DNA of 41,296 bases, from contig JAHDSB010000001.1 in the NCBI GenBank assembly GCA_018433015.1, forward strand, positions 1 through 41,296, read 5' to 3'. The DNA is from Clostridia bacterium (GTDB taxonomy: Bacteria > Bacillota > Peptococcia > DRI-13 > SV3-B141). A program made the translations under genes and the position numbers. Below, piece after piece: positions 25,071 to 39,118 of this stretch; position 1 is the first letter of the stretch; every line of letters starts with the position of its first letter. The notes below the pieces were generated by a model, which was not told where the DNA came from, ran no database searches, and saw only the letters and a program-made list of their open reading frames with translations.

Positions 25071-25958
25071 TTATACTTGATGCAAGAAGGAGTGGGTGAA
25101 ATTTATCCACTCCTTTGCTGCGTAAGACAAATATTTATTTTTTCGCCAAGCAATAGCTAAATACCAGTTAATGGTGGGTTCATTTAAAGGAATAGTTTTA
25201 ATTCTATTGGAGTCAAGGTTGCGGCAGACTGGCTCAGGTAAAAGGGCAATCCCCAAATTAGCGGCCACCATTTCACTGATGAAGTCCCATTGAGAGCTTT
25301 CATATATAATCTTAGGATGAAAGCCTTTTTTGATGCATTCCTCATAAATAAGGTTATGAAGCGTAAAGTCTTTCGAGAGAAAAATAAAATTTTCATTGCT
25401 TAATTCTCGGAGTGCCACAGCAGCTTTACCTGCTAAGGGATGATTCGGATGGACCAGGAGCATGAGGGGGTTATTTACAAAAGGAAAAAAGGCGAAATCT
25501 TCCTGGTCAATAGGCAATAATACAACACCAATATCGATATTACCTTGGAGTAGCTCAGTTTCTACTTTTTTCGCTCCATACTCAAATAATTTTATTTTAA
25601 TCAAAGGATAAAGCTTATTAAATTCACTGATGATCTGGGGAAAGAATCTTGCACCCACCATGGGGGGCAAGCCTATTTTTATTTGGCCTTTTTTTAGCCC
25701 TTTTACATCTAAGAGTTCTACCGGGATGTTTTCAAAAAGAGTGATTATTTGTAATCCCTGTTTATAAAGAATCTTTCCTGCGTCGGTTAGTTCTATTTGT
25801 CTGGAACTACGGTCAAATAATAAAATTCCCAGCTCTTCTTCGATATTTTTTACTAATTTACTTACGGTAGGTTGAGAAACGTGAAGTTTTTGTGCTGCTA
25901 GGGAAAAACTTTTACTTTTGGCCACTTCTAAGAAATATTTTAAATGAAGGATATCCAT
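25071..25958 (-). CDS. LysR-family regulator (CidR/CcpC-like), divergent from lrgA/lrgB pair
   Basis: A 295-residue LysR regulator of normal length. The N-terminal helix-turn-helix reads FLEVAKSKSFSLAAQKLHVS and QPTVSKLVKNIEEELG; the rest is the two-lobed effector domain. The ATG at 25958 is chosen because AAAGGAG lies about six bases upstream; an upstream in-frame TTG overlaps that site. It faces the lrgA/lrgB pair across a 156-base gap. In Bacillus and Staphylococcus, LysR proteins such as CidR activate the neighbouring cid operon in response to acetate or pyruvate overflow, so the same role is likely here. The effector is not visible from sequence. Confidence 0.92.
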   Translation of the reverse strand: MDILHLKYFLEVAKSKSFSLAAQKLHVSQPTVSKLVKNIEEELGILLFDRSSRQIELTDAGKILYKQGLQIITLFENIPVELLDVKGLKKGQIKIGLPPMVGARFFPQIISEFNKLYPLIKIKLFEYGAKKVETELLQGNIDIGVVLLPIDQEDFAFFPFVNNPLMLLVHPNHPLAGKAAVALRELSNENFIFLSKDFTLHNLIYEECIKKGFHPKIIYESSQWDFISEMVAANLGIALLPEPVCRNLDSNRIKTIPLNEPTINWYLAIAWRKNKYLSYAAKEWINFTHSFLHQV

Positions 25959-26024
25959 AAGCAACTCCTTTATATATACTTATATATAAATATATAGATG
26001 AAAATTATATAAAGATAAAAAACT

Positions 26025-26054
26025 TTGTTATAGATAATATGCATAAGTTATATT
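26025..26054 (+). promoter_or_regulatory. Predicted promoter of the lrgA/lrgB pair
   Basis: TTGTTA (26025-26030), an 18-base spacer and TATATT (26049-26054) in the divergent gap between the LysR gene and lrgA. The region is very AT-rich, so chance matches are likely; no clear LysR box was picked out. Confidence 0.35.
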
Positions 26055-26114
26055 CTAAATATGAATTTTACTCTATACTTAAAATTATGTAAACTATGGG
26101 GGAGGTGACGCATA

Positions 26115-26474
26115 ATGAAGTATGTCAAGTATCTGGGACAAATCCTAATATTTATTGGATTTGCAATTATAGGAAATTTTATAGTTGATTTTTTAAAGTT
26201 GGATATACCCGGGAGTATCATTGGACTGTTGCTGGTGTTTTTGCTATTAAAAAGTAAGATCCTTAAGCTTCACTGGGTAGAAGAAGGAGCAAATTTTCTT
26301 CTGGCTAATTTATTGATATTTTTTATTCCTGCAGCCGTAGGAATTATTGAATATAAGAACCTTATTGCTGAAAAGGGCATTAGTCTTTTATTTATCATAT
26401 TAATAAGTACAAGTGTGGTAATGGTTAGTGCAGGGTTTTTAGCAAATAAACTTATACAATTAAGAAAGGATTAA
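26115..26474 (+). CDS. lrgA: CidA/LrgA-family membrane protein
   Basis: A 119-residue membrane protein with four hydrophobic helices, matching the holin-like CidA/LrgA family (IPGSIIGLLLVFLLL and ANLLIFFIPAAVGIIEY are diagnostic). GGGGAGGTG lies before the ATG. CidA/LrgA act with CidB/LrgB partners in control of murein hydrolase activity and cell lysis; in Bacillus the related PftAB pair imports pyruvate. It is followed after ten bases by the LrgB partner and divergently controlled by a LysR regulator. Confidence 0.92.
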   Translation: MKYVKYLGQILIFIGFAIIGNFIVDFLKLDIPGSIIGLLLVFLLLKSKILKLHWVEEGANFLLANLLIFFIPAAVGIIEYKNLIAEKGISLLFIILISTSVVMVSAGFLANKLIQLRKD

Positions 26475-26484
26475 GTAAATTAAT

Positions 26485-27174
26485 ATGTCAGGTATAGCAT
26501 ATCTTTTAATAACCATTGTTATCTATGCAGCAGCCCAATTTATTTATAAGCAACGTAAAAATCTGCTGTTTTCTCCCATGTTGCTTACTCCTCTGGCCCT
26601 AATAACTGTATTATCTCTGCAGAATATTCCTTATGAAACTTTTAATGCCGGTACCCATTGGCTCTCGGATTTGTTACAGCCGGCAACGGTAGCTTTTGCT
26701 ATCCCTTTATATAAATATTTTGATTTGCTTAAGAAGCATGTCCACGCTATATTGATAAGTGTTTTAACCGGTTCGGTTCTAGCTATTATAACAACTATTT
26801 TGTTAGCTGTTTTGTGCAATATTGAAGCGGAAATAGCTGCCAGCTTTGCTCCCCGTTCTATTACTACCCCTTTTGCCATGGCTGTTTCAGAAACTATCGG
26901 GGGAATTCCTAATCTAACAGCTAATTTTGTGATAGTAACAGGAATGTTGGGCTCAATCTTAGGTCCTTTATTAATAAGAGTGTTTAAAATAGAAAGTGAT
27001 ATAGCAAAAGGAGTCTTGCTGGGAATGGGAGCCCATGCCGTAGGTACCTCGAAAGCCTTTGAATTAGGAGATATAGAAGGTACCATCTCCTGCCTATCTA
27101 TGATTTTGGCTGCTATCATTACTGTATTGATCGGGCCTAATTTGATAAATTATACCATCAGATTTTTAGGGTAA
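26485..27174 (+). CDS. lrgB: LrgB/CidB-family membrane protein
   Basis: A 229-residue polytopic membrane protein of the LrgB family. Diagnostic segments are FAPRSITTPFAMAVSE, GGIPNLTANFVIVTGMLG and GMGAHAVGTSKAFELG. It starts ten bases after lrgA, with AAAGGA rather far upstream (about 14 bases), so translation may be coupled to lrgA. With LrgA it should form the membrane complex involved in pyruvate/acid-linked transport or autolysis control; which of the two applies cannot be decided here. A bidirectional terminator lies 62 bases after the stop. Confidence 0.93.
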   Translation: MSGIAYLLITIVIYAAAQFIYKQRKNLLFSPMLLTPLALITVLSLQNIPYETFNAGTHWLSDLLQPATVAFAIPLYKYFDLLKKHVHAILISVLTGSVLAIITTILLAVLCNIEAEIAASFAPRSITTPFAMAVSETIGGIPNLTANFVIVTGMLGSILGPLLIRVFKIESDIAKGVLLGMGAHAVGTSKAFELGDIEGTISCLSMILAAIITVLIGPNLINYTIRFLG

Positions 27175-27269: not shown

Positions 27270-29318
27270 TCATTTGTCCCATGAATCTACCAATTGTTTA
27301 CCTTTTTGTGTTAACTTAGAGCCCTTTCCTACAAAAGAATTTATAAGTTTATATTTTTTTAAAATACTTAAGCGTGTTTTTATCTGTTGCTCGCTTAATG
27401 TTATGTCATAATGATGTAATTTTTTTAATAAATAGGAACGTCCTATAAGATGCTCCTTATTATAGGATTCACGAAATATTTTTAAAATAGCCATTATATC
27501 TTTTTTTGCTACTAGATCCGGATCTAGTAGCTGGCCTTGATCTACTGGTTTTTGCTCTGAATTAAATCCCGTGTTTAAAGAATAATGGGACAGGATGTCA
27601 ACGAGATCTGTTTTAAGATTTTGCGAAACTGTTTCCACAGTAATAATGTATTCGGCGATATTTTCCAGTTGCCTGATGTTACCTGGCCAAGCATAAGCTA
27701 ATAATATTTTTTTAACATCTGTACTTATCTGGGGATAAGGTTTGTTTTGTATTTTCGCATATTTTCCTAGAAAATAATGTAATAAGAGTTCTATATCTTC
27801 TTTGCGTTCCCTTAAAGAAGGTAAATGCAGGGGTAAAACATTCAATCTGTAATACAAATCTTTTCTAAATTTATTATTTTCTACAAGGGCATTTAAGGAT
27901 TTATTTGTAGCTGCTATTACTCTTACATCAATAGGAATTGTGCTATTACCGGAGATACGCATGATTTCTTTTTCTTGCAACACCCGTAAGAGTTTTGTTT
28001 GGATGGTTAAGGGAGCATCGCCTATTTCATCTAAAAAGATGGTGCCGGTATGAGCCAGTTCAAAGAGTCCGATTTTTCCACCTTTTTTAGCTCCTGTAAA
28101 GGCACCGTCTTCGTAACCGAAAAGTTCACTTTCCAATAGGGACTCAGAAAGGGCTGCGCAATTAATAGCCACAAAAGGTTTTTTTCTTCTTTTGGAGGCT
28201 TGATGGATGGATTGAGCAAATAATTCTTTTCCTGTGCCGCTTTCCCCGGTGATGAGTATAGTAGAATCAGTTTGCGCTAAATTTTTTGCTTTTTCAATAA
28301 TATTAGACATAGTTCTACTTTGGAAAATTATATCGGAAAAAGAGTATTTAGCTTTATTCCCCGAATATCTCAGTTGTTTACGATGTTGTTCATCAATATT
28401 TCTTATTTGCGTTAAATCTTTGAGGATAAGCATATGCACTTTATTATTTTCCGAAATATAAATATCTTTATTAGTTACATGAATAGTTCTGTTGTTAAAT
28501 TGTATAAAAGGATTCTTCATGTTGGTCAAGGGTTGGGGATACAAATCTAGGATGTTAGTTCCTTTAAGATCAGCTTTACCGATTATATTGGCAGCAGCAG
28601 TATTATAAAATGTAATAATATGGTTAAAATCCGTCATGATAACACCATCTTCCAACTCAGAAATGGCCATTTCCATTTGCAATTGGAGGGCTTTATTTGT
28701 TTTTACTTGATGTGATAATTTCATGGATGAACTAACTAAATCACAAATATAGCGAGAATAAACTAATTCATCACAAGATGTACTACCGGTAAAATGAATT
28801 AAAATTTCAGCTATAGTCATAATGCTTATAAGACGAGTTCCCAGATCGATTACATTAGGGATATCTGGAGGTACTAAATGAGGTTCTCCCGGTGTGATGG
28901 CATATTTAAATGTTTTATTTGTAATTTCAACGGGATTGTAAGGGTGAAAAACTAGGTGGTTGATACCCACAGTTTCCAGTTCATTTATAACCTCAATGGT
29001 ATTTTGAAATAAGTTATTCACAACTAAGACTTCAGAACCAGGGGGGATATTGAAGAGACATTCTAACTTCTTAGGATTGATAGTTCTTTTAGCAATCAAA
29101 TATTTCGCCGTAGGATCTAGATAAGGTAAATAGAGATTTTTCACAACGGGAGCAGTTAGTAAAATTAAATCATCATAAATTAATTCATGGGCAGGGATGT
29201 CATTCAAGCACAAACTATTAACTTTAATTTGGTTTCCTATGAGTTTAGTTAATTGATTATATATTTCAGTTTTTGCCTTTTGGTTATAAGAAAGGGTTGT
29301 TAAAGAATGATTAGGCAT
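27270..29318 (-). CDS. Sigma-54-dependent transcriptional activator (PAS + AAA+), regulator of the adjacent catabolic operon
   Basis: A 682-residue enhancer-binding protein. The ATG at 29318 has GGAGGT six bases upstream; the 21-codon extension in front has no such site. The N-terminal ~200 residues form a sensory region that loosely resembles the PrpR/RocR N-terminal fold, but I cannot name the ligand. A PAS domain (~217-300) follows. The AAA+ domain (~328-560) has Walker A GESGTGKE (~358-365), the sigma-54 contact GAFTGA (~405-410) and Walker B DEIG (~430). No Fis-type helix-turn-helix is evident; the C-terminus (~605-680) looks like a winged helix with YLLKKLHHYDITLSEQQIKT. A -24/-12 promoter lies in front of the divergent operon, which it likely activates. 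Confidence 0.9.
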   Translation of the reverse strand: MPNHSLTTLSYNQKAKTEIYNQLTKLIGNQIKVNSLCLNDIPAHELIYDDLILLTAPVVKNLYLPYLDPTAKYLIAKRTINPKKLECLFNIPPGSEVLVVNNLFQNTIEVINELETVGINHLVFHPYNPVEITNKTFKYAITPGEPHLVPPDIPNVIDLGTRLISIMTIAEILIHFTGSTSCDELVYSRYICDLVSSSMKLSHQVKTNKALQLQMEMAISELEDGVIMTDFNHIITFYNTAAANIIGKADLKGTNILDLYPQPLTNMKNPFIQFNNRTIHVTNKDIYISENNKVHMLILKDLTQIRNIDEQHRKQLRYSGNKAKYSFSDIIFQSRTMSNIIEKAKNLAQTDSTILITGESGTGKELFAQSIHQASKRRKKPFVAINCAALSESLLESELFGYEDGAFTGAKKGGKIGLFELAHTGTIFLDEIGDAPLTIQTKLLRVLQEKEIMRISGNSTIPIDVRVIAATNKSLNALVENNKFRKDLYYRLNVLPLHLPSLRERKEDIELLLHYFLGKYAKIQNKPYPQISTDVKKILLAYAWPGNIRQLENIAEYIITVETVSQNLKTDLVDILSHYSLNTGFNSEQKPVDQGQLLDPDLVAKKDIMAILKIFRESYNKEHLIGRSYLLKKLHHYDITLSEQQIKTRLSILKKYKLINSFVGKGSKLTQKGKQLVDSWDK

Positions 29319-29489
29319 AATAAGACCTCCAGATTTGTTAAATAAACTCCAGCGGTTAAAGGTAAGGGCCCTACTAACCAAGAAAATTAAGCTATACTAA
29401 ATCAAGAAAATATATTTAAATATTCAAATAATTATATTATGTTATATTCGGTTATTAGATAAATAAATCCTGCAAAAAAAACTAGTGAA

Positions 29490-29534
29490 CCCATAACCAG
29501 GTTAAACCAGGCTTAACCTGGTTATGGGGTTTTT
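29490..29534 (+). terminator. Strong hairpin terminator in the divergent region
   Basis: CCCATAACCAGGTTAA (29490-29505) pairs perfectly over 16 bases with TTAACCTGGTTATGGG (29513-29528) around a seven-base loop, followed by GTTTTT. On the minus strand a run of eight T lies eight bases after the stem, so weak activity that way is possible. No plus-strand gene precedes it. Confidence 0.8.
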
Positions 29535-29618
29535 ATTGCTATAAAAATCACCTTAACTTAATTTTCACTTACAGTATTTATTATAATTACTGTATATATC
29601 ATTGTTTAGAAGGCTCTC

Positions 29619-29634
29619 TGTGACTATTCTCACA
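29619..29634. promoter_or_regulatory. TGTGA-N6-TCACA palindrome upstream of the sigma-54 promoter
   Basis: TGTGACTATTCTCACA is a perfect palindrome in its outer five bases on each side, matching the CRP/FNR-family consensus. It ends six bases before the -24 GG of the sigma-54 promoter, centred near -40 from the expected start. The binding protein is unknown. Confidence 0.6.
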
Positions 29635-29638
29635 AGGT

Positions 29639-29656
29639 CTGGCATAGGTTTTGCAA
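29639..29656 (+). promoter_or_regulatory. Sigma-54 (-24/-12) promoter of the catabolic operon
   Basis: CTGGCATAGGTTTTGCAA contains TGGCA and TTGCA with exactly ten bases between the invariant GG (29641-29642) and GC (29653-29654). It lies 95 bases before the dehydrogenase start and is divergent from a sigma-54 activator gene. Confidence 0.88.
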
Positions 29657-29750
29657 ATATAGAAATATAAATGCTAGCTGAAAGGTTATCTAGATAACTA
29701 ATTATTAGTGCAAATTACTGACATTGATGAGTGGGAGAGGAGAGAATGCA

Positions 29751-30722
29751 ATGAAAAAGATATTAATTACTTCGGAAGAGATAAAGAAGGAAAACTGGAG
29801 GGAAATAGAAAGGATTTTGCTGGAAAACAAAATAACCCCTATTTTTAATAAATTGAAACGAGCAATGACGGCGGAAGAGATCTGTCAGGTATGTGCAGAA
29901 CATAAAATAGAAGGAATTGTTGTATACTCAAGTTCTGATGAAATAAACAATAAAGTGTTTGAAAATTGCCACGATTTAAAAGTTATCTCCAGACATGGAG
30001 TTGGTATTGAAAATATTGATGTGGACGCGGCAGAAAAAAACGGGGTAAAAATAAGGACTACAAATAAGGTAGGGTATTACGAGACAGTAGCAGACTTAAC
30101 CTTGGGATTAATGATTAATATAGCGCGCAACATAACTCAAGTTCATCAAGAACTGAAAAAGAAGAATTGGATTAGGCCAATTGGTACGGATGTATGGGGT
30201 AAATCTTTAGGTATAGTAGGTCTGGGGCGCATTGGCATGGCAGTAGCTGAAAGAGCTAAAGGTTTTAAAATGAAAGTGCTGGCTTATGATCCTTATGTTA
30301 ATCAAGATTTAGCCCAGCAGCAGGAGATTGAATTAGTTCCCTTGACTAAGCTCCTGCAGGATAGCGACTTTATCAGTTTGCATTTACCTTTAAATAGGGA
30401 GACTAAAAACATAATCAGTGCTGAACAATTTAAACTCATGAAGGGAACAGCTTACTTAATTAATGTTGCCAGAGCCGATTTAGTCGAGCAAAAGGCCTTA
30501 CTTAATGCCTTAAAAAATGAAGAAATAAAGGGAGTCGCCCTAGATGTTTTTTCTGTAGAACCTGCCCTAAAAGATCCTTTAGTGGAGAGTAATTTACCTA
30601 ACTTAGTTCTTACTTCCCATATTGGCTCTTATACTACGGAAGTTTTGCGGCAGATGGATATTTCCGTAATTAACAATGCCATAGAGATTATTAAGGGATG
30701 TAAAGGAGATAGGGAAAAATAA
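29751..30722 (+). CDS. 2-hydroxyacid dehydrogenase (SerA-like)
   Basis: A 323-residue NAD-dependent 2-hydroxyacid dehydrogenase, first gene behind the sigma-54 promoter. The ATG at 29751 is chosen because GAGAGGAGAG lies eight bases upstream; two earlier in-frame starts have no site. The Rossmann motif GIVGLGRIG, the catalytic Arg in NVARADLV, Glu in FSVEP and His in TSHIGSYT are all present. It has no ACT domain, so it is unlikely to be the serine-pathway enzyme. It is diverged from the similar enzyme near the start of the window. It may reduce a 2-oxoacid formed by the aminotransferase at the end of this cluster, or oxidise an incoming hydroxyacid. The substrate is unknown. Confidence 0.88.
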   Translation: MKKILITSEEIKKENWREIERILLENKITPIFNKLKRAMTAEEICQVCAEHKIEGIVVYSSSDEINNKVFENCHDLKVISRHGVGIENIDVDAAEKNGVKIRTTNKVGYYETVADLTLGLMINIARNITQVHQELKKKNWIRPIGTDVWGKSLGIVGLGRIGMAVAERAKGFKMKVLAYDPYVNQDLAQQQEIELVPLTKLLQDSDFISLHLPLNRETKNIISAEQFKLMKGTAYLINVARADLVEQKALLNALKNEEIKGVALDVFSVEPALKDPLVESNLPNLVLTSHIGSYTTEVLRQMDISVINNAIEIIKGCKGDREK

Positions 30723-30855: not shown

Positions 30856-32244
30856 ATGAAGAATAAAGTTACCTTAACAGAGTCTGTCGTCCTTATGTGT
30901 ATAATTATAGCCCATATAGTAGCTTGTGTTCGTATGGGTCTTGGTCTGGTAGCTCCCCTCTTCCTTTCCTGGGTAATAATTTACTTATTTAATCTCTATA
31001 AGAAGAACGATTATAAAGTATTAGAAAAAGCCTGTCTTGATTCTATTCGCTCCGGTTTTCAGTCCATAGCTATTGTTTTAGCCGTAGGGGTATTAATTGG
31101 GACTTGGATTATTTCCGGTACAGTACCTACCTTGATTTATTATGGATTAAAACTGATCCATCCCAATTGGTTTTTAGTGGCCACTTTATTGATCTGTTCA
31201 ATACTATCTTTGGCAACAGGTACTTCTTATGGTTCGGCAGGTTCCGGAGGTTTGGCCATGATGGGTATAGGTATCGGGATGGGTTTCCCTCCGGGAATGA
31301 TTGCTGGGGCTGTTATTTGTGGCGCTTTATTTGGGGATAAAATGTCTCCCTTCTCAGATACTACCAATCTTGCTCCGGCAATGGCGGGGGGAGACTTATT
31401 CAAACATATCGGTAGTATGTGTTGGACAACAATTCCCCCTTATATCATATGTTTAATTATTTTCGCTATATTTGGTTTCTCCCATAGTAGTACAAATTAT
31501 GATCCTACACAAGTTGTTACTTACATGGAAGGTTTAAAGAGTGTATTTAATATTAACCCCATCATGCTTTTGCCTATTATTTTAGTTATTGTTTTACTGA
31601 TTTTCAAAACTCCAGCTATACCGGCAATTTTAATTGGTGCCATTAGCGGTGGGGTAGTAGCTGTTTTTTTCCAAGATACCACAATTGCAGAAGTAGTTAA
31701 TGTTATGCATAAAGGCTATAACATTGATTCAGGGATTTATTTAATTGACAGATTGCTTAATCGTGGTGGCGTTAATAGTATGACTGATATTGCTTGTATC
31801 ATGATATTTGCAATGGGTTTAGGCGGTATGCTAGAGAAATTAGGCGTATTAGCTAACTTCTTGAGTCTTATTATAAATAAAATCACTTCTACGGGACGTT
31901 TAATTCTTTCCACTTTATTAGTGGCTTACATTACAGGAGCTATTGGTTGTACCATGTCCATGTCCCATGTAATCACTGGGAAGCTGATGGCACCTACCTA
32001 TCGAGCTAGAGGTATTGAGCCAGAGATTCTCTCAAGAACAATGGAAGATGCAGGTACCCTGGGTGGTACACTTATGCCTTGGCATACTAATGCAGTATTC
32101 TTTACCGGAGCTCTTGGGGTTACCTATGGAGAATATATACCCTTCGTTTTCATATGTTTCCTTACTCCTATATTCTCTCTCATTTATGGCTATACAGGTA
32201 TAACAATAAAACGTGTTAAGAAGGAGGAATATTATGAAGCCTGA
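30856..32244 (+). CDS. nhaC: NhaC-family Na+/H+ antiporter
   Basis: A 462-residue membrane protein of NhaC type with about eleven to twelve helices. The signature GTSYGSAGSGGLAMMGIGIG and the following ICGALFGDKMSPFSDTTNLA are clear, and a second half repeats the fold (TGAIGCTMSMSHVITGKL). AAGGAGGT lies just before the ATG. NhaC relatives exchange sodium for protons, or a metabolite pair as in malate/lactate antiport (MleN). Its place ahead of an AbgT importer in a catabolic operon suggests metabolite exchange or sodium cycling to support that import. Eleven bases overlap the next gene. Confidence 0.92.
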   Translation: MKNKVTLTESVVLMCIIIAHIVACVRMGLGLVAPLFLSWVIIYLFNLYKKNDYKVLEKACLDSIRSGFQSIAIVLAVGVLIGTWIISGTVPTLIYYGLKLIHPNWFLVATLLICSILSLATGTSYGSAGSGGLAMMGIGIGMGFPPGMIAGAVICGALFGDKMSPFSDTTNLAPAMAGGDLFKHIGSMCWTTIPPYIICLIIFAIFGFSHSSTNYDPTQVVTYMEGLKSVFNINPIMLLPIILVIVLLIFKTPAIPAILIGAISGGVVAVFFQDTTIAEVVNVMHKGYNIDSGIYLIDRLLNRGGVNSMTDIACIMIFAMGLGGMLEKLGVLANFLSLIINKITSTGRLILSTLLVAYITGAIGCTMSMSHVITGKLMAPTYRARGIEPEILSRTMEDAGTLGGTLMPWHTNAVFFTGALGVTYGEYIPFVFICFLTPIFSLIYGYTGITIKRVKKEEYYEA

Positions 32245-33781
32245 AATTATCAAGGAAAATCAGAGCCAAATGCGGGGTTTTTTAGGGTGGGTCGAAAGAG
32301 TAGGTAATAAAGTACCTCATCCGGTGTACTTATTTATCTGGTTATTTTTCATTACATTGGTCCTAACTTCGGTGTGTAGTATGTTAGGATTACAAGCCAT
32401 CAATCCTACTAATAAAGAGGTTGTAGCTGTAGTAAATATGTTGACTGGCCCTCAATTAGGCTTATTTCTAAAAAATATTGTAAATGAATTTGCTACCTTT
32501 AGACCACTGGGAATGGTTGTAGTGGCAACTATCGGTCTAGGAGTTGCTAATAGAAGCGGATTGTTAGAAACTTCCTTGAGACTTACAGGTCTGGCCAAGT
32601 CAGCCACAGTGACAACAGCATTAGTATTTCTAGTGGGAATATGCGGCAATATTGCCGGCGATGCCGCCTTTATTATATTACCGCCCTTGACAGCTTTGCT
32701 GTTTCAAGGAATGGGTAGAAATCCTTTAGCCGGATTATTTGCCGGTTTTGCCGGTGTTGCTTGTGGTTTTGGTGCCAATTTATTAATAGGTTCGGCGGAT
32801 GCCGCTTTAGCAGGGTTAACAGAGGCGGCGGCGCAGATAATCGATCCTAGCTATGTGGCTACACCTGCCATGGGATATTATTATCTGTTTGCCTCGACTA
32901 TTTTTCTAGTACCCATTGGTACCATAGTGACGATGAAATATGTGGAACCTAAATTAAATAAGTTTGGTATTGGTGTGGAATCAATCAAGAAATTTACCGC
33001 AGATGATATAAAGGTTACTTTATCACAGGAAGAAAAAGGGGCCTTGAAAGCAGCTGCTCTATCCGTACTAGCTTTTGTTGCTGTTATAGTTCTGATGACT
33101 TTACCGGGCTTACCCTTTGCCGCTCCTGAAGGGAAAAGTATTATAGAAGGATACTTGTTGAAATCCGTACCTCCCCTTATTCTGTTGCTTTTCTTTATAC
33201 CCGGTTATGTTTATGGTAAAAAAATAGGCAAAATTAAAAGTTTTCAAGATACCATACCCATGATGTGTGAGGAACTTAAAACCTTAGCAAGTTTTATTCT
33301 GATTTGTTTCTTTGCCTCCATGTTTATTTCCGTTTTTAGTGATAGCAATATAGGTTTTATAATAGCTATCAAAGGTGCGGAATTCTTGCAGCACATAGGA
33401 TTACAAGGCCCCTTATTGCTAGTATCTTTTGTGATAGTGGTAGGAATTATTAATTTATTCATTGGTAGTGCTAGTGCTAAATATGCCCTGCTTTCTACAG
33501 TATTTGTGCCCATGTTAATGATGTCTGGGATAGACCCTGCTGCAACTCAAGCCGTGTATAGAATGGGTGATAGTATAACTAACAATATAACACCGACTCT
33601 CCCTTATTTGGCCATTGTATTGAGTTATGCTCAAGAATATGATAACAGGGCCAAAACAGGTACAGTTATGGCTTATATGCTCCCCTATACTATAGCCTTT
33701 GGAGTAGCATGGTGTGCATTTTTAGCTATTTGGTATTTGTTAGGCTTACCCATGGGGCCAGGGTACAGCATTCTATATTAA
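32234..33781 (+). CDS. abgT: AbgT-family transporter (p-aminobenzoyl-glutamate type)
   Basis: A 515-residue membrane transporter of the AbgT family. The ATG at 32234 has GAAGGAGG eight bases upstream; earlier in-frame codons lie inside the nhaC gene. Characteristic segments are GNIAGDAAFIILPPLTALLF, GFGANLLIGSADAALAGLTE, NLFIGSASAKYALLSTVFVP and YRMGDSITNNITPTLPYL. E. coli AbgT imports p-aminobenzoyl-glutamate, and other members export sulfonamides. The next two genes encode M20 amidohydrolases as in the E. coli abgAB-abgT locus, so import of an N-acyl or N-aroyl amino acid is the best guess. Confidence 0.94.
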   Translation: MKPEIIKENQSQMRGFLGWVERVGNKVPHPVYLFIWLFFITLVLTSVCSMLGLQAINPTNKEVVAVVNMLTGPQLGLFLKNIVNEFATFRPLGMVVVATIGLGVANRSGLLETSLRLTGLAKSATVTTALVFLVGICGNIAGDAAFIILPPLTALLFQGMGRNPLAGLFAGFAGVACGFGANLLIGSADAALAGLTEAAAQIIDPSYVATPAMGYYYLFASTIFLVPIGTIVTMKYVEPKLNKFGIGVESIKKFTADDIKVTLSQEEKGALKAAALSVLAFVAVIVLMTLPGLPFAAPEGKSIIEGYLLKSVPPLILLLFFIPGYVYGKKIGKIKSFQDTIPMMCEELKTLASFILICFFASMFISVFSDSNIGFIIAIKGAEFLQHIGLQGPLLLVSFVIVVGIINLFIGSASAKYALLSTVFVPMLMMSGIDPAATQAVYRMGDSITNNITPTLPYLAIVLSYAQEYDNRAKTGTVMAYMLPYTIAFGVAWCAFLAIWYLLGLPMGPGYSILY

Positions 33782-33844: not shown

Positions 33845-35101
33845 ATGAATTATAGGCAAGAGAGCATTTCCATCAAAGAAAAGATACTTCAATATAGACG
33901 ACATTTCCATATGTATCCGGAAGTTAGTACTAAAGAGTTTCAAACAGCTGAATATATAGCTAAAGAGTTAACTAACATGGGGATAAAGATTATACAAAGA
34001 GGAGCTAGCCCCCAGGAAATAGGTGAGGAAATATATACAAAAGAAGGTAAAGAAACAATACTAAAATACGGCGATCCTCTCCCAGGTGTGGTAGGTTTAC
34101 TGAAGGGTGACTTAGAAGGTCCTACTGTAGCCTTGAGAGCTGATATGGATGCACTGGCCATGGAAGAAAAGAATGACTTACCTTATTCCTCCCAAAATAA
34201 AGGTATTATGCATGCCTGTGGTCATGATGCTCATATGGCTATCTTATTAGGAACGGCTCAGCTCCTGGCCCGTAAACGGAAAAATCTCAAGGGAAATGTA
34301 AAATTTATTTTCCAACCTTCCGAGGAAATAATAGGCGGGGCAGTTCCCTTGATAAAAGATGGAGTACTCAAAAACCCTGATGTGGATGTGATCTTTGGAC
34401 TCCATATGGACCCCAGTTATAAAGTGGGAGAAGTAGGTATTTCCTATGGGGAAACTATGGCAGCTTCCGATAGATTAATTATTAAAATATTTGGTAAAAG
34501 TTCCCATGGGGCTACCCCAGAGCTTGGTACAGATGCTATTGTAATAGCCGGTCATATTTTAGTAGCCTTTCAATCTTTAATGGCCAGGATGAAAAGTCCT
34601 TTAGAATCTGCAGTTCTGAGTTTTGGAACGATACATGGAGGTCAACAACCCAATTCTCTTGCCGAGGAAGTTATCATAAGAGGAATTTTGCGGACTTTTA
34701 ATCCTAAGGTCAGAAAAGAAATAATACAAAATATGCAGCAGATCTTAACAGGTGTTACCCAGGCCTATGGTGGCTCATTTGAATTTACCAGGGAAAAAAG
34801 TTATGACAGTTTGATAAATGATAAAGATAGTGTAATTTTTTTAGAAGAAACTTTTAAGGATATTATTGGGAAAGAAAATATAAAAGTGTTGGAAAAGCCC
34901 CGCACTATAGTGGAAGACTTTGCTTATTATTTACAAGAGGTACCCGGGGCCTTTTTCTTCTTAGGTTCAGGAAATCCGCAAAAAGACACCCAGTATCCTT
35001 TACATAGTTCTAATTTTAATATCGATGAAGATGCCTTAGAACTGGGAGTTGCCTTAATGACAGCGTTGACACTTAATTATCTTGATAAAAAGACTCTATA
35101 A
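33845..35101 (+). CDS. M20-family amidohydrolase (hippurate hydrolase/N-acyl-amino-acid amidohydrolase type)
   Basis: A 418-residue cytoplasmic metallo-amidohydrolase. The metal and catalytic motifs are complete: LRADMDALAMEE (~97-108), HACGHDAH (123-130), QPSEE (157-161) and a late HSSNFNID. Residues ~54-80 form an insertion relative to the usual hippurate hydrolase. AGGAGGT lies upstream of the ATG. It should release a carboxylic acid from the amino acid of an N-acyl or N-aroyl conjugate brought in by the AbgT-type transporter. Confidence 0.93.
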   Translation: MNYRQESISIKEKILQYRRHFHMYPEVSTKEFQTAEYIAKELTNMGIKIIQRGASPQEIGEEIYTKEGKETILKYGDPLPGVVGLLKGDLEGPTVALRADMDALAMEEKNDLPYSSQNKGIMHACGHDAHMAILLGTAQLLARKRKNLKGNVKFIFQPSEEIIGGAVPLIKDGVLKNPDVDVIFGLHMDPSYKVGEVGISYGETMAASDRLIIKIFGKSSHGATPELGTDAIVIAGHILVAFQSLMARMKSPLESAVLSFGTIHGGQQPNSLAEEVIIRGILRTFNPKVRKEIIQNMQQILTGVTQAYGGSFEFTREKSYDSLINDKDSVIFLEETFKDIIGKENIKVLEKPRTIVEDFAYYLQEVPGAFFFLGSGNPQKDTQYPLHSSNFNIDEDALELGVALMTALTLNYLDKKTL

Positions 35102-35123: not shown

Positions 35124-36347
35124 TTGTATGATTACTTAGAACAGAGAATAATTGATGCTATTGAGGAAAATTCCAACAGGATAAAACAGTTAAGTTTAAA
35201 TATATTCAATAATCCGGAAACTGCTAATAAAGAGTATTTAGCGGCTGATATTTTAACGAAAGAATTAGAAGCGCATGGTTTTACAATAAAGCGAGGTTTA
35301 AAAGGAATTAAGCCGGTAGATAGGGAAGAAGTTATATTAGATACGGCTTTTAAAGCAAGAGCACCGGGGAAAAAGACAGGACCTAATATAGCCCTAATCT
35401 TGGAGTATGATGCTTTACCTACTGGTCATGCCTGTGGCCATAATCTAATATGTGCAGCGGGCTTGAGTGCAGCCCTAGGTCTCAAAGAAGTTATGGGGGA
35501 AGTGCAGGGTAATTTACTGGTGTTTGGAACTCCCGCCGAAGAAGGAGCCCTTACAGGCAATAAGACGGAGATGACTTATGCAGGACATTTTGCTGATGTT
35601 GATGTTATCTTAGCAAATCATCCGGGAGATCGGTGGGATCCAGGTGCCAACTGGTTGGCATTTAGTAAAGGCACTATTAATTTTCATGGTAAAGCTTCTC
35701 ATGCAGCATCTGCCCCGGAACAGGGAATCAATGCGTTAAAGGCAGCATATCTATTTTTTAATGGTGTTGATGCTTTACGGGAACATATTCGAGAAGATGC
35801 TAGGCTTCATGGGATAATAACTCAGGGAGGAAATAAGAGTAATATGGTGCCTGAGTTTGCCCAGGTAATGTTTGCTGTACGTGCCTTTGATAAGCCCTAT
35901 GTGAATAAAGTAGTACAAAGGGTGACGGATATTATTGAAGGTGCATGTTTGATGACAGGGGCAAGAGCCGATTACAGTTGGGGTTATGCAGTTAATGCCC
36001 CTCTCAATGTACCTAGCCTGGTGGAATTAACAAAAGAGAAGATAAAACAAGTAGGGATTGAAAGTAAGGAAATAAGAAGATGGACTGCATATGCCTCTAC
36101 AGATTTAGGGGAGGTGGGTATTACCGTCCCTACCATGAATTTATTTTATTCTGCTGCACCCCCGGGTACAGGATTACATACGGAGGAGATGTTAAAGGCT
36201 GTAAAGGAACCTATAGCCTTGGATGCAATGATTACTGCCAGTAAAGTAATAGCCTTAACGGCCTATCAGATCTTCACCAGTCCTGCATTATTAAAAGAAA
36301 TTAAAGCTGAATTTAGCACAATTAAAGAGGAGTTATTTAATGGATAA
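35124..36347 (+). CDS. Second M20-family amidohydrolase (AbgB/ACY1L2-like)
   Basis: A 407-residue amidohydrolase of the AbgB branch. It begins at TTG seven bases after GGAGG. Motifs are EYDALPTGHACGHN (94-107), FGTPAEEG (134-141) and HGKASHAASAPEQG in the lid domain. It is clearly a different subfamily from the preceding M20 gene. In E. coli the AbgA and AbgB subunits together cleave p-aminobenzoyl-glutamate; the two genes here may likewise form a heteromer or act on different conjugates. A hairpin terminator follows the stop. Confidence 0.92.
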   Translation: MYDYLEQRIIDAIEENSNRIKQLSLNIFNNPETANKEYLAADILTKELEAHGFTIKRGLKGIKPVDREEVILDTAFKARAPGKKTGPNIALILEYDALPTGHACGHNLICAAGLSAALGLKEVMGEVQGNLLVFGTPAEEGALTGNKTEMTYAGHFADVDVILANHPGDRWDPGANWLAFSKGTINFHGKASHAASAPEQGINALKAAYLFFNGVDALREHIREDARLHGIITQGGNKSNMVPEFAQVMFAVRAFDKPYVNKVVQRVTDIIEGACLMTGARADYSWGYAVNAPLNVPSLVELTKEKIKQVGIESKEIRRWTAYASTDLGEVGITVPTMNLFYSAAPPGTGLHTEEMLKAVKEPIALDAMITASKVIALTAYQIFTSPALLKEIKAEFSTIKEELFNG

Positions 36348-37819: not shown

Positions 37820-39118
37820 GTGATTCCAATTATTTATCAATATAAAACTACGGGGCAGGATTGGTTCAATTATATATCCCAAGGGTGTACCTCAAATGCT
37901 CTCATTCAGTATGTCATGAAAGTAAAGGGAAAGATCAATTATCCTATTCTGGAGAAAGCTATTAGATTGTCCTTTGATGCCGAACCAATTCTCGGATGTT
38001 GTTTTATGGAACAAGATCCTTGCCCTACTTGGGAAACTATCAATAATTTAGAAATATATCCGTTATGTCCCCTGATTACTACAGATAATGCTCAACAGGA
38101 AATTGATAAATTTTTAGCTAGTGAACTGTGGGCAGATAAATCACCCCAGTTAAAGGCTTGCGTTATTAGGGATGAAAAAGAGGATACAATTTGCCTTAAA
38201 CTTAATCATGCTGCCTGTGACGGAGCAGGAGCAAAATATTACCTGAGACTCTTGGAAGAGATCTACAGAAAAATAGAGGCTAATGAAATTTATATACCCC
38301 CTGTAAGAGAAGGTAAAAGAACAACTCAGGAATTTTATAAAGCCTTAAATATTACAAATTTAAAAGATACCTTTCAACCTGGAAGTGCTGAATTATCATC
38401 TACCTGGGGATTTCCCACGGTTGAAAATAAAGATATGCCCTCAAGGTTTACTTATGAGATATGCAGGTTGGAAGAGCAAGATTTTAAGGCCCTTTATAAA
38501 TATTCTAAAAATCGAGGAATAACTATTAATAATATAATTCTTTCCGCCTATTATCTAGCTATGTTAAACCTTGTGGAAATCAAAGAAGGATTAAAAGAAA
38601 TTCAGTTTATGATTGATCTGAGAAAATATTTACCCTCGGGAATTACCCAAACTATATGTAATCTATCCGCCATTGTTAATATTGAACTGCCGGTTATAGA
38701 GGACAATGATTTAGGGAAAATGGTAAGCATCACAGCCGAGGAAATGAAAAAGGTTATGTCGGAAAAACCCTATATTCACAGCACCATAGGGGGAGATTTA
38801 GCAACTGCAGAAGGGTTTTATAATGTCCGTGATTTTATAAATAATGATTGGGAAAATATAAAAATCTCTGGGAAATGCACTCCTATGATATCTAACCTGG
38901 GTCAGCTGACCCCACAATTGCTGGAGTTTGGCACCGCCCTTATCCAGGATGTGTATGTAGTTACACCGGCCTTTTATGCTCCGGCCTTTATGCTGGGACT
39001 CAGTACATACAATAATAGATTAACGTTATGTGCAAGCTATTACACCCCTGGTATTGCTCGAGAAAAAGTAAAGTTGCTACTAGATGATATGTGCAAAATG
39101 TTGAAAGAATTAGTGTGA
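37820..39118 (+). CDS. Stand-alone condensation/acyltransferase-fold protein (HxxxDG)
   Basis: A 432-residue cytoplasmic protein of the chloramphenicol-acetyltransferase/condensation-domain superfamily. The active-site motif HAACDGAG (His130, Asp134, Gly135) fits HxxxDG, and the second half has the expected FMIDLRKYLP and SNLGQLTP segments. Such single proteins are seen as alcohol or polyketide-associated acyltransferases and are mostly uncharacterised. No peptide synthetase, carrier protein or thioesterase gene is present in the window. The GTG start has only a GGGG just before it, so initiation is uncertain; there is no better candidate nearby. It is flanked by terminators on both sides and so stands as a single-gene unit. 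Confidence 0.75.
   Translation: MIPIIYQYKTTGQDWFNYISQGCTSNALIQYVMKVKGKINYPILEKAIRLSFDAEPILGCCFMEQDPCPTWETINNLEIYPLCPLITTDNAQQEIDKFLASELWADKSPQLKACVIRDEKEDTICLKLNHAACDGAGAKYYLRLLEEIYRKIEANEIYIPPVREGKRTTQEFYKALNITNLKDTFQPGSAELSSTWGFPTVENKDMPSRFTYEICRLEEQDFKALYKYSKNRGITINNIILSAYYLAMLNLVEIKEGLKEIQFMIDLRKYLPSGITQTICNLSAIVNIELPVIEDNDLGKMVSITAEEMKKVMSEKPYIHSTIGGDLATAEGFYNVRDFINNDWENIKISGKCTPMISNLGQLTPQLLEFGTALIQDVYVVTPAFYAPAFMLGLSTYNNRLTLCASYYTPGIAREKVKLLLDDMCKMLKELV

Follow-up and report, generated by a model that had tools for sequence, protein, structure and literature searches.

Does a perfect CRP-like dyad that abuts a sigma-54 promoter mark a second layer of control, or is it a look-alike that arose by chance? 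This question is raised by an intergenic region in a 41,296-nucleotide stretch of DNA from a Clostridia bacterium (the window), where a preliminary description had placed a TGTGA-N6-TCACA sequence just upstream of a -24/-12 promoter. The two elements are indeed adjacent: TGTGACTATTCTCACA matches the CRP/FNR operator consensus with 0 mismatches, is the sole perfect copy inside the window, and is separated by six bases from the GG of TGGCATAGGTTTTGCA, in which GG-N10-GC lies inside TGGCAY-N5-TTGCW (Table 1). The arms of the dyad are exactly 5 bp long and extend neither inward nor outward. In the reading that we prefer, and to which we assign a probability of about two in three, this is an ordinary sigma-54 promoter with an upstream UAS array, and the CRP-like dyad lies beside it by chance.

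Table 1. Features of the divergent module in the window.
Feature	Coordinates	Strand	Remarks
Sigma-54 activator (EBP), 682 aa	27270..29318	-	AAA+ with GAFTGA; C-terminal predicted winged helix
Terminator-like hairpin, 16-bp stem / 7-nt loop, then GTTTTTATTG	29490..29528	+	encloses UAS array
Predicted UAS array	29495..29523	.	three AACCWGGTT-type units; tandem form at two genome places only
TACAGTA-N11-TACTGTA dyad	29570..29594	.	perfect 7-bp arms, longer than those of the CRP-like dyad
TGTGA-N6-TCACA dyad	29619..29634	.	centred at about -39.5 from the estimated start (initiation assumed 12 bases past the -12 GC); probably fortuitous
Sigma-54 -24/-12 promoter TGGCATAGGTTTTGCA	29640..29655	+	pattern excess 33 vs 0 in own genome
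D-2-hydroxyacid dehydrogenase, first gene of presumed target operon	29751..30722	+	
NhaC-family Na+/H+ antiporter-like transporter, presumed operon	30856..32244	+	
AbgT-family transporter, presumed operon	32213..33781	+	
M20 amidohydrolase, presumed operon	33845..35101	+	
Second M20-family hydrolase, presumed operon	35124..36347	+	

The identification of the promoter as a sigma-54 element is borne out by its genomic setting. Across the 3,754,200 bases of the host genome (197 contigs, completeness 99.29), TGGCAYNNNNNTTGCW is matched 33 times, and never when it is read backwards; all 33 sites were retained, some of them probably inside genes. The host also carries the sigma-54 gene rpoN, and the gene divergent from the promoter encodes an AAA+ activator with a GAFTGA motif. 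For comparison, the closest members of this activator family in the host and in eight other genomes of the order were collected (28 loci), and a -24/-12 element, picked by hand, was accepted near the activator gene in 26 of them. L065 and L071 were excluded as having no convincing promoter, and L076 and L080 were retained despite scores that did not exceed that of the site rejected at L071. A sigma-A promoter just upstream was considered and rejected, as 3 promoter-like sites were found in 29200-29800 against 3.3 expected, none of them on the plus strand 5' of the dyad. A query for sigma-54 activators returned 37 matches from the 3.75-Mb host genome, some of which are fragments or remote; in Clostridiales, 1 to 35 activators per species have been reported (PMC6615313).

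We infer that the five co-directional genes 3' of 29655 form one operon. A paralogous module is present in the same genome (L148, G000 contig C129, 5704-8995), its activator being 49% and its dehydrogenase 57% identical to those in the window. In that module the dehydrogenase is followed by a convergent gene and not by transporters. An orthologue of the operon as a whole was not found, and a contig scan with the dehydrogenase as query yielded 32 loci at an identity of no more than 41%.

Several counts bear on whether the dyad belongs to a set of functional sites. Perfect copies of TGTGA-N6-TCACA number 3 in 3.75 Mb against 4.3 expected from the base composition of the window, and copies with at most one mismatch number 62 against 56 in the reversed control, so that the genome-wide over-representation of a regulon is not seen, and a CRP regulon was rejected. 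Of the two perfect copies elsewhere in the genome, one falls within a coding ORF that resembles a pyrroline-5-carboxylate reductase, and the second overlaps a Shine-Dalgarno-like GGAGG immediately ahead of a GntR-like gene's start codon (both judged by eye). Of 398 genomes sampled from the phylum, the host alone has the dyad followed by TGGCAYNNNNNTTGC within 0-30 bases, counting exact matches only, and a recurring dyad-plus-promoter architecture was rejected as well. Nor is a proximal TGTGA dyad common to sigma-54 sites: within 120 bases upstream of the other 32 host pattern sites the best match has 2 mismatches, at one site, and over the same distance upstream of the 25 other family promoters the best match has 3, with 4 in the paralog. 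Lack of conservation, which the preliminary description had held to count against a function of the dyad, is thus what was observed as far as sequence allows, with at least 3 mismatches at these 25 promoters, as judged on one paralog and distant family members.

Short inverted repeats, on the other hand, are commonplace at such positions. Some 5-bp perfect inverted repeat with a spacer of 0-10 is found within 60 nt upstream of 24 of the 33 sigma-54 pattern sites and in 49% of mononucleotide shuffles of the dyad stretch, so the dyad as such is ordinary; with a spacer of exactly 6 the figures are 9 of 33 sites (nested longer hairpins counted) and 7% of shuffles. An exact TGTGA-N6-TCACA within 60 bases of any of the 33 sites would be expected 0.0017 times if that sequence had been named in advance. 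We discount this figure because it was not so named: many familiar operators would have been recognised, and most of these sites have some 5-bp dyad to offer. We regard the dyad as a sequence that most probably resembles a CRP site by coincidence and has no CRP/FNR function.

The proteins that might read such a site were also considered. The HTH_Crp_2 model has 11 matches in the host, 5 of them over the cut-off; the three strongest are the only proteins in the host with a cNMP-binding domain, and the other two over the cut-off are, by eye, proteins of other kinds. The recognition helix of E. coli CRP reads SRETVGR, and those of the three host CRP/FNR proteins, aligned to it by eye, read SRVTITN, TRPSLSR and PRPSLSR. 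None of the three has the full R180-E181-R185 set, so that the idea of a host CRP with complete recognition residues was set aside: two keep R at positions 180 and 185 with proline at 181 (R-P-R), while in the third V replaces E and N replaces the second R (R-V-N). In the work of Rodionov et al. (2005), R180 and E181 are associated with the half-site of CRP, and proline in place of E181 with the motif GTAACnnnnGTTAC, a specificity rule that is a correlation (PMC1274295). By this rule no host CRP/FNR protein is expected to prefer TGTGA-N6-TCACA. A copy of GTAACATATGTTAC, which fits the published HcpR2 motif GTAACnnnnGTTAC (PMC1274295), is present just upstream of one of the two proline-bearing CRP/FNR genes, beside a ferredoxin-like gene (L088, G000 contig C125).

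With no excess of sites, no recurrence beyond the host among the 398 genomes, no full CRP code in any host protein and a paralog that lacks the dyad, the CRP/FNR site put forward in the preliminary description is left unsupported. The best-surviving alternative, which we nevertheless consider unlikely at perhaps the level of a serious outside chance, is the broader one that a second regulator of the CRP/FNR or another dimeric family (GntR type, for example) occupies the dyad near -40, where it would block or tune the closed complex formed with sigma-54. The exact CRP consensus does touch the expected edge of the holoenzyme, it would be improbable here had it been specified beforehand, two of the three host CRP/FNR proteins retain both arginines, and the genome-wide counts are compatible with a regulator that has a single target. 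There are precedents as well. CRP-cAMP inhibits dctA and glnAp2 of E. coli, and also Pu, and CRP acting on a -24/-12 promoter is the arrangement imagined in the preliminary description (PMC3900584); in the analysis of that article, Pu itself contains no potential CRP site. CcpA, for its part, binds the cel promoter of Bacillus thuringiensis, with a putative cre located 5' of the sigma-54 element (PMC10864463). Unlike the dctA, glnAp2 and Pu cases (PMC3900584), however, neither a full-code CRP nor a TGTGA regulon was found in the present host, neither the paralog nor any of the other family promoters has the dyad, and the two remaining perfect copies sit in a coding ORF and over a ribosome-binding-like GGAGG. 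More doubtful still is a narrower form of the idea, in which only one copy of the module would have the dyad as an operator, the single target of some dimeric regulator that from its place at -40 would either lock the sigma-54 closed complex or license it. If true, two paralogous promoters with the same enhancer would answer to different second signals.

Removing the tempting but unsupported story of a second regulator puts a testable enhancer in its place, and the divergent activator is the protein presumed to bind it. This protein matches Sigma54_activat (PF00158) at 238.9 bits and has a weak PAS match below the cut-off. Its best NCBIfam model is PrdR, but it was not filed as such because the score of 370.5 bits falls short of the cut-off of 795. 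The C-terminal 84 residues have no match to a Fis-type HTH in Pfam, and this does not disqualify the protein from the EBP family, since the Fis type is usual and not universal. When modelled, this segment forms three helices, then a wing of two strands and a final helix (pLDDT 92.6, pTM 0.82), and its best Foldseek matches are the winged-helix regulators LmrR/PadR and CggR, none with an E-value below 0.001. The DNA-binding domain is thus predicted from the model to be a winged helix and not the usual Fis type.

The predicted array consists of the units AACCAGGTT, AACCAGGCT (one mismatch) and AACCTGGTT, which begin at distances of 145, 135 and 125 bases 5' of the -24 T. Its core was found as a recurrent inverted repeat upstream of the 26 family promoters. 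The tandem AACCWGGTTN{0,3}ACCWGG occurs at exactly two places in 3.75 Mb (0 in the reversed control), and both arrays lie 145 bases 5' of a sigma-54 -24 T, next to the two activator genes that are most alike. The second place is the paralogous module, where AACCAGGTT begins at -145 and -134 and the promoter is kept, while the dyad is missing. Three loci from other genomes in the order have units with at most one mismatch (at -128/-117, at -108 and at -120/-109/-98), and a fourth such locus has units at -254/-243. In addition, AACC-N1-2-GGTT has 9 matches in the 7.8 kb 5' of the family promoters against 3 in the other 126.7 kb of those loci, and is present in 6 of the 26 loci, whereas 500 mononucleotide shuffles gave 0.19 such loci on average and never more than 2. 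Because the motif was found by inspecting the very loci that were later counted, its uniqueness in the genome and the common offset are the stronger evidence. A global alignment of the two intergenic regions leaves the UAS copies unaligned, so the claim of a common UAS rests on the offsets. A broader search at 90-120 bases from the promoter found the UAS in 2 of 46 genomes, the host and G023, and missed the paralog, whose spacing falls outside that range. Among the best matches of a literature search with the UAS letters there was no sigma-54 title, which says nothing on whether the motif has been published.

The helix of the winged domain shows some agreement with the array. Recognition helices that fit [IL][KR]xRL occur at all six loci with a UAS and at four without, so that 6 of the 10 loci with this form carry the UAS and 0 of the 16 without it do; as the form was defined after the loci had been seen, the association is no more than suggestive. 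A tree of the binding domains, covering the 17 of 28 that the anchor pattern picked up, speaks against it: five UAS-bearing members group together with L071, but the domain from the window falls elsewhere. In the same comparison, the domain in the window is just 32% identical to that of the paralog, hardly more than the 31% that it shares with several members without a UAS. The structure alignment of the binding domains covered 27 of the 28 loci, L067 being excluded.

Taken at the level of sequence, the module appears to be a sigma-54 promoter of the usual enhancer-dependent kind: its predicted enhancer is conventional, and what is less common is the type of DNA-binding domain in its activator. 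The divergent activator, on receiving its presumed signal, would bind the three-unit AACCWGGTT-type array through its C-terminal winged helix and loop to the sigma-54 polymerase at the promoter, and the hydroxyacid dehydrogenase, transporter and hydrolase genes would be switched on. The other proposal of the preliminary description, that the dyad is an unusual activator site, became unlikely because a conventional enhancer is predicted upstream: a separate enhancer-like array lies at a normal distance and is common to the closest paralogous promoter, which does without the dyad.

Despite the divergent orientation of the flanking genes, the array is embedded in a strong terminator-like hairpin followed by a T run (MFE -27.5 kcal/mol, where shuffles average -14.2; z -4.48). 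Comparable hairpins lie between the activator gene and the promoter in L064, L072 and L083. The fold is possibly a second reason for the inverted repeats of the array. It could also be argued, although we hold this to be improbable, that the AACCWGGTT repeats form nothing but the stem of a terminator insulating the operon, and that the true enhancer lies elsewhere, for example in TACAGTA-N11-TACTGTA. The 16-bp hairpin with its T run fits this explanation, as do the T runs that also follow the repeats in L077 and L079 of other genomes. The TACAGTA dyad, whose only perfect copy in the genome lies here, 46-70 bases 5' of the -24 T, would be its candidate enhancer, and may itself be due to chance. 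Against a terminator, the repeats recur in the paralog at an identical offset, where nothing more than a 17-base repeat with 8-bp arms was scored and no T run follows on the promoter strand; AACC/GGTT units stand 5' of family promoters at four loci from other genomes in the order; and there is no evident transcript to stop because the flanking genes diverge. That the dyad is instead a promoter-proximal secondary site of the divergent activator itself is very improbable: multiple UAS are found in the target operons of 32 of 39 Clostridiales EBP groups (PMC6615313), but the dyad and the AACCWGGTT array have no core in common, the paralog keeps the array without the dyad, and, among the matches listed, none of the 26 family loci has a UAS core with at most one mismatch at 90 bases or less from the -24 T.

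An ordinary sigma-54 promoter with an upstream array has close counterparts. The module resembles the Clostridiales systems of sigma-54 and one-component EBPs surveyed by Nie et al. (2019), which have TTGGCATNNNNNTTGCT-type promoters, an EBP gene near the target, often multiple UAS located mostly 100-250 bp upstream, a PAS/AAA+ architecture, and targets in amino-acid metabolism and fermentation (PMC6615313). It differs from them in that 335 EBPs of the survey have a Fis-type HTH where a winged helix is predicted here, and in that the UAS is TGT-N10-12-ACA in 15 of 39 groups there and a predicted tandem AACCWGGTT here (PMC6615313). By description, the activator is also like DVU0151 of Desulfovibrio vulgaris, an EBP without a Fis HTH for which a winged helix was suggested, and which is likewise divergent from the sigma-54 promoter of a transport operon; DVU0151 has GAFSEA in place of the GAFTGA found here (PMC4641369). 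A winged-helix EBP is therefore not a new kind. AACCWGGTT in tandem becomes a candidate binding motif for sigma-54 activators with such a predicted domain, most of those surveyed being of the Fis type (PMC6615313).

Two further observations concern the neighborhood. An LrgA/LrgB-like pair with a divergent LysR regulator is located at 25071-27174, the LysR protein scoring 405.6 bits against a CidR cut-off of 415. Shortly past the presumed operon, at 37820-39118, a condensation-domain protein is encoded (PF00668, 36.6 bits).
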